Shown piece after piece: positions 14,664 through 24,367 of a stretch of 64,000 bases of DNA. The notes below the pieces were generated by a model. That model was not told where the DNA came from and made no database searches. It saw only the letters and a program-made list of their open reading frames with translations. The translations under genes were made by a program, and so were the position numbers. The stretch is from Nitzschia sp. pyKryTriq1 (lineage: Eukaryota; Bacillariophyta; Bacillariophyceae; Bacillariales; Bacillariaceae): assembly GCA_956465555.1 (NCBI GenBank), contig OY101115.1, positions 806,001 to 870,000 of the forward strand, written 5' to 3'. Each line of letters starts with the position of its first letter. The first letter of the stretch is position 1.

Positions 14664-17008
14664 ATGACCACAGAGACCATAATTCAGCCGGGGACCACTT
14701 TGGAGGGCGAAGATGGCGCCACGCGCTACAAATTCGAGAACGACTATATCCTTGACACCCGACTGCGGAGCGGAAGCTACGGCATTGTGTACACCACTCG
14801 GCACAAGGGAACGAACGAAGAATACGCCGTCAAGGTGATCGACCGCACCAAACTGAAGAAAAAAGACGACGATGCCACGTTTCGCGAAGTCAACATTATG
14901 AAAGATCTGCGCAACGTGCCGAACATTGTCGGACTGATGGATTTCTACGTCGAGCCGGAAACCTTCTACGTCGTTCAAGTCTACGCCAGGGGCGGGGACG
15001 TCTTTGATAGACTCGCCCAACGGGTGAGTTACACGGAAAAGGATGTTCGAGACTTGGGAATTATTCTTTTGAAAACCATGAAGCAACTCCACCAAAGAAA
15101 AATCTGTCACCGCGATTTAAAACCAGAGAACTTGCTTTTGAAGGAGAAGGGCGACGACGCCCAAATTCTCGTGGCCGACTTTGGCTTTGCCAAGTACGTT
15201 CCGGAAGGGGGCTTGCAAACGCGCTGCGGGACGCCGGCCTTTGTTGCCCCAGAAATTCTCGTGGGCGACCGATACAATACACAAGCAGACATGTGGAGTT
15301 GCGGGTGCCTCCTGTACATGTTGATCGGTGGGTACCCTCCCTTTCAAGACGAGACACATCGGGGTCTCTTCCGAAAGATTCGGGCGGCTGACTTTACCTT
15401 TCATGATATTTACTGGTCCAATGTCAGTTTGCATGCCAAACAGCTCATTTCCAAGCTTTTGACAGTTGACCCGGAACTGCGATTAGATGCCGAGGCTTGT
15501 TTACGCACTACTTGGTTGGAAGTTCGAGAAGATCAACTGAGTGTTCGTGACTTGTCCGTTTCCATTAATGAGATTAAAAATTTCTCCGCCAAGCGCAAGC
15601 TCAAATCAGCCATCCACACCGTCATGTGGGGTGTCAGTACGGCCTTTGTCACAGAGAAGATCAGTGAACTGTTTCAACTTACAGACAAGAAAGAAAGCGA
15701 TAGCAAATCCATTGAGCTTGAAGATATTGCTGAAGATCAACAAATTGCGAAATTCTCTCTAGGAATGTCACATAAGAAGCGGTTCGAAGAGCTGTACGAC
15801 CTGGGAGACAAGATCCATTCCGGCTCCTTTGCGGTCGTCAAGGAATGCCGTAATCGACAATGGGATACAAAGTACGCGGTCAAGGTCATTAAGCGCGATG
15901 GAAAGACGGATGAGGCAACTCTCCATGAAGTCGCCATTATGAATCAGTTGGATCACGAACACATCGTCAAGGTCGTCGACTTTTTCGAAGAAGACGATTA
16001 TTATTACATTGTCATGGAACTTATGGCGGGTGGGGATGTTTTTGACAGAATCATTGCCAAGAATAATTATACCGAGGCAGACGCTCGTGATCTTGCCAAA
16101 CTTCTTTTGGATGCAGTCAACTACATGCACCAGGCTGGTATTGCACATCGTGACTTGAAGCCGCAAAATTTGCTGCTCAGGGTAAGTTCGTCGTTTCTTT
16201 ACTAGTGAATACATGTGTGTGTGTGTGTGTGTGTGTGTGCTTACCGCCACAAGCTGTCAAGTTCGAGAATGCTCACACCAATTTTGTTGTTGTTGTTGTT
16301 GTTGTTCCTGTCATGAACAGTCCAAAGATGATAACGCGACTATCAAAATTGCTGATTTTGGGTTTGCAAAGAGAGTGCACACTCCAAAATCGTTGACTTC
16401 GCGTTGCGGAACGGTAAGTGCCAGTCTAGAGTACTCGTAGAGGGGTCCACGGTCGACGATGAAAGGTCTTTACTCCGAGTCATCGTCCTCACAACTCTTG
16501 CTTATGTCTGCCCCACCAGCCAAGTTATGTAGCACCTGAAATTTTGAAGAATATTCCTTACGATCAATCTTGCGACATGTGGAGCGTCGGCGTGATTCTT
16601 TATGTTTTGTTATGTGGGTACACTCCATTCATGTCGGATGACCAAGACCAGATGTTTGAAAAGATCAAGCAAGGGCAGTGGGAGTTTGACCCAGAAGACT
16701 GGAAGCATGTGTCCCAGGAGGCGCAGGATCTCATCACACAGTTGCTAGAACCAAATGCAGACTTGAGAATGACCGCTGCAAGAGCTCTGCGGTCCAAATG
16801 GATCAATAAGGACGCCAAGGAACTTTCGACCAGAGATTTGTCGATGGGTGTCCTGAATATGAAAGAGCGTCGTCCACGACTACTTGACCTGGCCAAGGCA
16901 TTCATGGCGATCGGTGGTGCCACCACGAAGAGGCTAGGTAACCTCAACCCCATCAAGAGCGAAAACAACAGCAGCGGCTCCGATTCGGATTCTCACCAGC
17001 TACTCTGA
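14664..17008 (+). CDS. Protein with two tandem CaMK-like kinase domains
   Basis: Exons 14664-16181, 16321-16413 and 16520-17008 join in frame to 699 aa. Domain 1 (about 28-285) has catalytic Lys in YAVKVID, HRDLKPENLLL, DFGFAK and GTPAFVAPE. Domain 2 (about 375-635) has YAVKVIKRD, HRDLKPQNLLL, DFGFAKR and GTPSYVAPE. Both look catalytically complete and CaMK-group, like RSK/MSK-style double kinases, but the second domain also resembles the first, pointing to internal duplication. Glycine loops are reduced: the first Gly is Arg in domain 1 and His in domain 2, and the third Gly is Ala in domain 2. No EF hands or obvious autoinhibitory helix are seen. Both introns fall in the second kinase domain only. 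Confidence 0.9.
16214..16306. repeat. Intronic (GT)n and (GTT)n microsatellites
   Basis: A (TG)n run at about 16214-16239 and a (TTG)n run at about 16284-16306, both inside intron 1 of the double kinase (16182-16320). Confidence 0.85.
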
Positions 17009-17172: not shown

Positions 17173-18564
17173 TCAGTGCCCCACCGCCAAACAATGTTGT
17201 GATAGCGACCGACTGTTTGAAAAGACACGACGGCACCTTGTACATCTCCACTCATTTCGCAATCGATCTTCGGAAAACAACCGTCGCTCTACTACATAAA
17301 ACTGCTCGAGTCCAGCATAATTCAGGAGATCGAAAAGAGCGTGCAACTCGTCCTGTGGCGATGCTCCTTCGGGCAATAAACACTTGCTTGTGGTAGCAGA
17401 AGCAGCAGCTTGACTACAGAATCCCAGCACCAGTCTCACCCAAGCTTCGGCTTGTTGGATATCTTGCACTCCTCCGTGCTGCCGAAATTCTATTGTGGAA
17501 GGGCGGGCCGGTTTGGCGAGATTGGTCAAATTCAATTTGCGGTAGCGATCTGGATTCATCCAACGCACTAAATCAGCCTTGGAGTTGATCCGTTGTATAC
17601 AATCCCATCGTTGTTGACTAGAGCGTTCTCCGAATGACAGTCGATTGGATTGGCAGTATTGATTAGTGTTGCGTCGGTTCGGGGGAACCAGCAAGTCAAA
17701 GGCGTTCTCGACGGAACAAAACGTTTGAGAAATTCGCCGCAACGCTGGTAAACTCTCTAGCGGACTCCCGCGTTCGGCATCGACATGGACATGAAATCCA
17801 CAACTGTTATTGGTGGCAATCCCTATACGCCGAATATGATCTAAAATCGTCCTGAACGACTGCAACCCTTCTTCTCCTTGCAGCACGGGCGACACCAGCT
17901 CACAGGTCAGATCACGGCTGGGTTGATTCTCAGAGATGCTCGCGTCAGTAACAATCTTCCAGTAGTCTGTCGTCTCATGCGTGTATCCACAATATCGAAC
18001 ATGGGGTGGACCCAACCGGTGCAAGTCACGAGCTATCGATTCGAGAGTAAATCCATCTCGCTTTCCATTGGGAATGAGCAACTCGAGTTCTACACCAAAT
18101 CGCAGGTTGGGGAGTTTTGAAAAGACCAAGACGTGGGCGGGAGGTTTGGATCCACAAGCCCCGCAGGCCGGCTCATAGGGGAGATTTGTGAAAGTACACT
18201 GATGGCAATCCCACGATCCTTGCGATTGCTCACGCAACTGGCTGGCGGACATGGCTTGAGATTCCGAAAGTGCCTGCGAAGTCAAAACGACTTCTGTATG
18301 ACGAGCCAGCTCTTTCGAGACGGCTAAGGCCGAAGCGAATTCATTTTCTTCATTACGCTCCTCCTGGGCTGATAGTTCTCGCGAGACGGCGAGTGCAGAC
18401 GCTAGCTCATTCTCCTCGATTTCTTTCTGTCGACGCACAGCTTCCGACTGAATGGATTGTTGGATCGCATTGGCTATTTCGGCTTCTACTTTTTCCTGAC
18501 GACTACGCTCAAGGGCTTCCTGTTCCGCCAAGATATATGCATAATCTATCTCATCGTCTTCCAT
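17173..18564 (-). CDS. Amidoligase-like enzyme with UIMs, NZF and C2H2 fingers
   Basis: 463 aa, intronless, ATG at 18564. Residues 1-110 are a charged helix with three ubiquitin-interacting-motif cores (Ala-x3-Ser at A33/S37, A57/S61, A79/S83, each after acidic residues). Residues 118-139 form a RanBP2/NZF finger (W118, C120, C123, C134, C137) with the Thr-Phe pair that marks ubiquitin-binding NZFs. Residues 155-400 match the COOH-NH2 ligase (putative amidoligase) fold: FGVELEL at 156, VTDAS near 205, CELVSP at 221, GFHVHVD at 256 and TIEFRQH at 357, the metal- and ATP-binding positions. C441, C444, H457 and H463 form a C2H2 finger at the very end. The family forms ATP-dependent amide bonds; here the target may be ubiquitinated protein (inference). 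Glutamate-cysteine ligase is the alternative but the size does not fit. Confidence 0.85.
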   Translation of the reverse strand: MEDDEIDYAYILAEQEALERSRQEKVEAEIANAIQQSIQSEAVRRQKEIEENELASALAVSRELSAQEERNEENEFASALAVSKELARHTEVVLTSQALSESQAMSASQLREQSQGSWDCHQCTFTNLPYEPACGACGSKPPAHVLVFSKLPNLRFGVELELLIPNGKRDGFTLESIARDLHRLGPPHVRYCGYTHETTDYWKIVTDASISENQPSRDLTCELVSPVLQGEEGLQSFRTILDHIRRIGIATNNSCGFHVHVDAERGSPLESLPALRRISQTFCSVENAFDLLVPPNRRNTNQYCQSNRLSFGERSSQQRWDCIQRINSKADLVRWMNPDRYRKLNLTNLAKPARPSTIEFRQHGGVQDIQQAEAWVRLVLGFCSQAAASATTSKCLLPEGASPQDELHALFDLLNYAGLEQFYVVERRLFSEDRLRNEWRCTRCRRVFSNSRSLSQHCLAVGH

Positions 18565-23319: not shown

Positions 23320-24367
23320 GATGATGTTTTCTGTTTTGCGATTGTTCAATTTGTGAGTTTGTGAGACAGATAAAAAATGATCCATATCCCTGTCGACAGA
23401 CCGCGGAGAAACACTTCTGGCACAAATCGATGTCTTCATTTAACGTAGTATTCTTCCGACAACGCTAAAACATTCTCCGAATTCCAAGCATAATGCCGTC
23501 AATGCCAAATTGAAATTCGACAAAAAATGACCGATGGCAGTTGATAGTTGTGCACTTGCCAGTTGTGATGGCCCGAGGAGGAGTCGCGAGTACAAGTAGT
23601 CATCACACTCGGATTAGTCAGCTTTGCGTTCCCGTTTCCCCCGGTCTGTCGGTCTTGTAACACTTCACTTTTTGTGCGCGCAGCGTCGTGCGTCGTGAGC
23701 TATTCGGGCGCTGCGTCTTAGTACCAGTACATACTTGTACTGTTACTGTACGGTACTCGTACCAGGTACTGTACGTACCTGGTACAGAAGGACGCTGGGT
23801 ACGGTACAAGTACTGTAACGGAACCGGTCTACCGTACAGTACCAGGTGTACTGGTACTGTACCGGTACGGTACCTGGTACGAGAGGTGTGTGTGGAGTTT
23901 GGGCCCGTCATTGGAAAGTCGACGTGTATGCTCTCGTAGAAATTCTACGTAAAACCCGTGTCACAGGTTTGCCTTGTAGGATTCGCCATCCGACGACGCA
24001 CACCACCAACACCTTGTGACGAGCAAATCAGCAAGCACCACATACGACGGTCATTGCTTACTTCTTTGCACGACGATCGGAAGCATCATCATCATCATCA
24101 TCATTTATCCTCGAACGAACGAACAGGTCGGTGAGTGGTCGAAAAGGAGGAGTCGTCTACGAAGTCTAGAGGACCACGTCGTCGTCGGCATTTTCAATTC
24201 CAACGACGAGATTTTTTGCACATCTATCCCTGGAGGTGTGCTTGTTGACTGATTCTTGTCGTCACTTACTCTGCCTTCTTTGAAACAATTTGCTTTGCAG
24301 TCGCAGCGCTCGGTGTTCTCTCTTTGAATTTGTTTTTCAAGTACAGTACCAGCATTGACAAATATAA
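23320..24367. promoter_or_regulatory. Divergent promoter region packed with GTAC palindromes
   Basis: Lies between the divergent LRR and carrier genes. By hand count about 21 GTAC tetramers fall within roughly 165 bases (23725-23888), many as GGTACC or ACCGGT. A (CAT)n microsatellite follows at about 24083-24104. The last 120 bases are probably the carrier's leader. No ORF in it is convincing. Confidence 0.5.

Follow-up and report, generated by a model that had tools for sequence, protein, structure and literature searches.

The window (the whole stretch of 64,000 nucleotides that we analysed) comes from the diatom Nitzschia sp. pyKryTriq1, whose genome has 40.65 Mb and 20 contigs. Its reverse strand holds an uninterrupted open reading frame (ORF) of 463 codons and a stop. 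The preliminary description, made from the letters alone, had read this frame as an amidoligase joined to three UIMs, an NZF finger and a terminal C2H2 finger. The frame and the named motifs are present, and the architecture is real and shared with diatom relatives (Table 1). The two closest relatives are 467 and 464 aa long and cover the frame fully, at 83% and 80% identity. Because these relatives match the frame in length and cover all of it, a missing exon is not indicated. The intact frame and the same-length relatives also rule out a pseudogene or a split gene.

Scanned flanking ORFs encode a two-domain protein kinase, a glutaredoxin, a pirin, an LRR protein and a trypsin-like protein. 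None has an evident link to the amidoligase gene, and we dropped the genome neighbourhood as a functional clue. The kinase gene (14664-17008, forward strand) carries a tandem pair of kinase domains, the second of which resumes past a probable intron. It is convergent with the amidoligase gene, with a stop-to-stop gap of about 165 bases. At 23618-23939, ORFs with repetitive translations overlap on both strands, apparently over short GTAC-like repeats; this stretch looks non-coding.

Table 1. Features of the amidoligase gene in the window, and its two paralogues in the same genome.
Feature	Coordinates	Strand	Basis
Whole ORF, UIM-NZF-amidoligase-C2H2, 463 aa	17173..18564	-	ORF call and nearest relatives
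UIM core 1, residues 26-42	18439..18489	-	Pattern; S37 column is Ser in 108/108
UIM core 2, residues 50-66	18367..18417	-	Pattern; weakly conserved, A57 column is Ala in 23/94
UIM core 3, residues 72-88	18301..18351	-	Pattern; A79 83/111, S83 92/111
Continuous predicted helix carrying the UIM cores, residues 8-113	18226..18543	-	DSSP on AlphaFold2 model
NZF / RanBP2-type C4 zinc finger, residues 116-142	18139..18219	-	Pfam, alignment columns, profile matches
Amidoligase_2 (PF12224) domain, residues 153-381, catalytic motifs intact	17422..18108	-	Pfam, alignment, fold
C-terminal C2H2 finger, residues 439-463	17176..17250	-	Pfam, alignment columns
YEATS-amidoligase paralogue L001, same genome	L001:1054-2412	+	Pfam
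YEATS-amidoligase paralogue L003, same genome	L003:1351-2763	-	Pfam, model of P0121

A conserved amidoligase core

A missing match to the amidoligase profile had been set beforehand as an outcome that would refute the first reading. The match is strong: Pfam finds Amidoligase_2 (PF12224) at E 2.8e-34, with 119.5 bits against a cut-off of 22, and the same domain at E<=10 in all 74 family members scanned. The COOH-NH2 ligase superfamily to which this domain belongs was reportedly described by Iyer and colleagues in 2009. We know of no PF12224 enzyme with biochemical proof of its activity.

Loss of E-x-E or H-x-H in orthologues, the second danger to that reading, is not seen. In the alignment of the best 120 relatives E159 and E161 are each kept in 117 of 118 rows, D207, S209 and E222 in 118 of 118, and H258, H260, R340, N345, E359 and R361 in 120 of 120. 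Thus the ligase motif set is intact, in columns that hardly vary within the family. The catalytic residues, E-x-E and H-x-H among them, are near-invariant in phage and bacterial relatives too.

The predicted fold is glutamine-synthetase-like (Foldseek, VIA), and in a viral fold search amidoligases of phages and giant viruses emerge as structural relatives. Over the whole chain, Foldseek TM-scores against GS-like ligases stay at a low TMq of about 0.3, and HMG-CoA reductases, which are unrelated, enter the list from E 0.013 on. The pupylation enzymes PafA and Dop share the GS-like fold, as a fold match only; they differ in that neither appears in the 60 listed of the 133 sequence matches to the family profile, and the diatom readers would suit ubiquitin, not Pup. 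PafA forms an isopeptide that joins a protein tag to lysine. Dop is a GS-fold enzyme that runs hydrolysis.

A Dop-like reverse reaction would make the diatom protein a hydrolase of isopeptides or side-chain amides on ubiquitin conjugates; as deubiquitinase or deamidase it would have a fold not known in that role. The top fold relatives (YbdK, 1tt4) are ligases, which argues for synthesis, though fold by itself is no guide to direction. Furthermore, ordinary deubiquitinase folds already exist. We consider hydrolysis very improbable.

The modules around the core

The family comprises 161 proteins at E<=0.01, our own included, of which the best 120 are listed. All organism names shown among these 120 are diatoms, and most entries carry none. 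The named genera include Mayamaea, Seminavis, Cylindrotheca, Ditylum, Thalassiosira, Corethron and Amphora; four of the named relatives span three classes of Bacillariophyta, which places the family in at least three diatom classes. By pattern, the best 120 hold the NZF finger in 113 cases, the C2H2 finger in 116, at least one strict UIM core in 94 and the catalytic motifs, loosely written, in 117. All four modules occur together in 91 of the 120, and some of the others are short. A precomputed RanBP-finger domain annotation accompanies 51 of the 120.

A wider eukaryotic search among proteins of 509-1620 aa gave 23 matches, each with PF12224; the best 120 already contained 22 of these, and no other architecture appeared. 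This search relies on shared 5-residue words, and even YEATS-type proteins of that length (see below) were not returned. Distant eukaryotic amidoligases, for example fungal ones, may therefore have escaped a word-based search, and non-diatom eukaryotes are poorly sampled. Among the listed titles and abstract openings of literature on amidoligases with ubiquitin, YEATS, diatoms or fungi we did not find the UIM/NZF-amidoligase architecture. Iyer et al. 2009 lay outside that scope and may already mention eukaryotic fusions, so we do not claim the architecture as unpublished.

We define a strict UIM core as Phi-x-x-A-[LIVMA]-x-x-S with at least two acidic residues in the preceding four. The 463-aa protein has three such cores; when the residues of its N-terminus are shuffled, three or more arise with a probability of 0.0001 (20000 trials). 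For the family count we used 108 members, our own protein included: of the 120 listed, we set aside 7 that lack the NZF pattern and 5 that have fewer than 60 aa ahead of it. These members hold 157 cores against 2.96 +/- 1.79 (maximum 10) in 200 shuffles. At least one core is found in 94 of the 108 and none in the other 14. The excess is specific to the spacing of Ala and Ser: a distance of 4 yields the 157 cores, distances of 2, 3, 5, 6, 7 and 8 yield 6-33, and swapping A and S yields 3. Shuffles and spacing controls together rule out a chance origin.

The Pfam UIM models do not match the 463-aa protein at E<=10, in a scan whose HMMER filters remove most matches above E about 0.1. Among the 74 scanned members, UIM matches 9 and UIM_2 matches 10 at this threshold, weakly (best E 0.021 and 0.0019). 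Since Pfam gives no UIM match here, the UIM call leans on pattern and conservation. Successive cores are spaced by 24 and 22 residues, all on one predicted helix. With a turn of 100 degrees per residue, core 1 would point away from the face that cores 2 and 3 roughly have in common. The three Ala-x3-Ser cores with acidic flanks proposed at the outset are there, far above shuffled expectation and helical in the model.

Behind the helix, Pfam reports a RanBP-type finger (residues 115-140, E 0.0011; its 18.7 bits fall short of the cut-off of 27). All 74 scanned members have it at E<=10 (best 3.5e-9). The Trp and Cys columns of this W-x-C-x2-C-x3-N-x6-C-x2-C finger are invariant, in 113/113 or 114/114 aligned rows. 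The preliminary description had seen an NZF with a Thr-Phe pair that contacts ubiquitin. The finger and its Thr hold up (T124, Thr in 110 of 113), the Phe does not: the column of F125 is split between Phe (47), Leu (35) and Tyr (27) among 113 rows. At the third ubiquitin-contact position, A136, Ala is found in 64 of 114.

A profile built from 74 members matches the solved fingers of RanBP2, Nup153, TAB2 (2e-5), YAF2, NPL4 (9e-5), HOIL-1, TRABID and HOIP. RanBP2 and Nup153 match about equally well, and the profile score leaves ubiquitin-binding and Ran-binding fingers inseparable. Ala at the third contact place (C-x-A-C) is what RanBP2 and Nup153 carry and lends no support to the ubiquitin type. 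In that case RNA, DNA or Ran might be what the fingers bind, and the enzyme would have chromatin or RNP proteins as targets, with no reading of ubiquitin. The terminal C2H2 finger fits such a role. It is present as first described: its Pfam match (residues 439-459, E 0.038) is below the cut-off, while its ligands and core (C441, C444, F448, H457, H463) are kept in 116 of 116 aligned rows. At E<=10, 28 of 74 members match zf-C2H2_jaz, a model of a finger said to bind dsRNA. Against this stands the Thr after the second Cys, where the listed fingers of RanBP2, Nup358 and Nup153 have Leu, Ser, Tyr or Cys; this difference favours the ubiquitin type. A nucleic-acid or nuclear-transport role also leaves the excess of UIM cores without explanation, and we think it distinctly unlikely.

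Among ubiquitin receptors with UIM or NZF modules, TAB2, NPL4, HOIL-1 and TRABID resemble the diatom protein in motif and zinc-finger pattern. There the modules sit on a scaffold, an E3 or a deubiquitinase, whereas here they accompany an enzyme predicted to form amides.

A YEATS-carrying sister family and its relatives

PF12224 has three matches in the genome: the gene in the window and two paralogues (Table 1). The two paralogues belong to a sister family with the same catalytic residues, in which an N-terminal YEATS-like domain replaces the UIM/NZF part. Pfam reports neither a RanBP nor a C2H2 finger in the two paralogues. L003 passes the YEATS cut-off (23.2 bits versus 22), and L001 stays below it (15.7; pYEATS 16.8 versus 26.9). 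P0121, a protein identical to the L003 frame over the aligned 97%, has a structure model (pLDDT 89.0) that matches the YEATS domains of Yaf9 (4e-7), GAS41, AF9 and YEATS2. The preliminary description gains from this a family setting: the protein belongs to a diatom family whose YEATS-carrying sister is represented in the genome as well and has one member with a RING.

The YEATS type counts 403 proteins at E<=0.001, with the best 120 listed (P0121-P0240); the names shown are diatoms. Its presumed acyl-lysine cage is partly kept: F109 in 71 of 74 members, Y140 in 63 of 74, and Gly at position 106 in 60 of 73. We take these positions to be those of the AF9 cage, where AF9 presumably has His at the place of position 106. 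A CCxxC cysteine cluster lies within the last 80 residues of 107 of the best 120 members. The member with the RING, one of the best 120, is P0185, a transcriptome protein of 524 aa inside the YEATS-type clade, whose C-terminal RING-H2 matches zf-RING_2 at 1.8e-12. This RING is likely an E3 module and a second tie of the amidoligase group to the ubiquitin system.

The sister family bears on a further reading, a metabolic ligase that makes free gamma-glutamyl or other small amides, with UIM and NZF governing its own ubiquitylation, turnover or location. Solved GS-like structural relatives are mostly metabolic (YbdK, GCL, GmaS, GS), and UIM proteins are frequently monoubiquitylated themselves. 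A sister family with a different reader of protein modifications points instead to substrate targeting, not self-regulation, and the number of conserved modules exceeds the needs of a degron. A metabolic ligase is unlikely in our judgement.

We placed both types in a quick tree of 127 rows, in which diatoms are the only eukaryotes and some branches are long. SH-aLRT support is 100 for the UIM type (14 rows), 99 for the YEATS type (14 rows) and 97 for their sister relation. With support of only 81-85, both group with the Bacteroidota rows, with 19 of the 20 rows labelled GGACT (gamma-glutamyl-cyclotransferase-like) and with 1 of the 38 labelled GATase. The labels stem from neighbouring genes among 108 prokaryotic and viral relatives: 24 have a GGACT-like ORF within 3 kb (22 viral, 2 on genome contigs), 41 are near a class II GATase-like ORF, and 3 loci are in both lists. 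Pfam named only two GGACT and one GATase seed ORFs, and the rest were assigned by iterated local profiles.

Cleavage of gamma-glutamyl amines is the reaction of GGACT enzymes, and this points to gamma-glutamyl chemistry in this branch of the tree; the GATase neighbours weigh against it. GGACT also has two matches in the diatom genome itself. Some residues (N348, R377) are constant in each of the two diatom sets, unlike in phages and bacteria; this may reflect a changed substrate common to both sets. Among the 108 prokaryotic and viral amidoligase ORFs, a search for the NZF and C2H2 patterns found neither, and in this the diatom enzyme, set among putative ubiquitin-reading modules, differs from a superfamily whose domain, motifs and fold it shares. 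The simplest history would start with a gene acquired from a phage or a bacterium, which was then duplicated and whose copies gained their readers independently.

Two loci deserve separate mention. A viral contig (L004:7533-9056) lines up an amidoligase gene, an ORF of 98 aa and a GGACT gene, an arrangement that suggests gamma-glutamyl chemistry. In an archaeal Nitrososphaeria MAG (L089:4833-6554, forward strand) a 573-aa amidoligase lies beside a GATase gene; its weak N-terminal zinc-ribbon match (E 0.012, below the cut-off) would be a zinc module on a non-diatom amidoligase.

A putative modifier of ubiquitylated proteins

The reading that we tentatively prefer, at somewhat short of an even chance, is an ATP- and metal-dependent GS-like carboxylate-amine ligase that is brought to ubiquitylated proteins and forms an amide on the conjugate. 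The UIM helix and the NZF finger would bind ubiquitylated proteins and so bring the ligase there. ATP would phosphorylate a glutamyl or other side-chain carboxylate, which an amine would then attack. The amide would be formed on the conjugate, and gamma-glutamyl-type chemistry is the likeliest candidate for it. Of the original proposal of an enzyme steered to ubiquitinated proteins to add an amide-linked tag, the steering remains the best reading of the conserved diatom architecture, and the tag as product is a conjecture. Because modified-lysine recognition would be the theme common to both sister families, we favour a reader-writer on ubiquitylated proteins, perhaps those of chromatin; a nuclear setting would fit.

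A bolder and rather doubtful extension covers both families. Diatom reader-writer amidoligases, with UIM/NZF for ubiquitin and YEATS for acyl-lysine, would add a further amide-linked mark at or near modified lysines. This would be a second route of protein conjugation in a eukaryote, one that uses the GS fold and is independent of E1. To our knowledge, the proven case of GS-fold protein conjugation is bacterial pupylation.

If the extension is true, diatoms have a reader-writer chemistry comparable to bacterial pupylation, in which the YEATS-amidoligase fusion would tie a reader of acyl-lysine to amide ligation. A phage or bacterial enzyme class would have been turned into a ubiquitin- or chromatin-linked modifier in diatoms. 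The family offers a testable candidate for a novel modification of proteins in algae important for the ocean carbon cycle.
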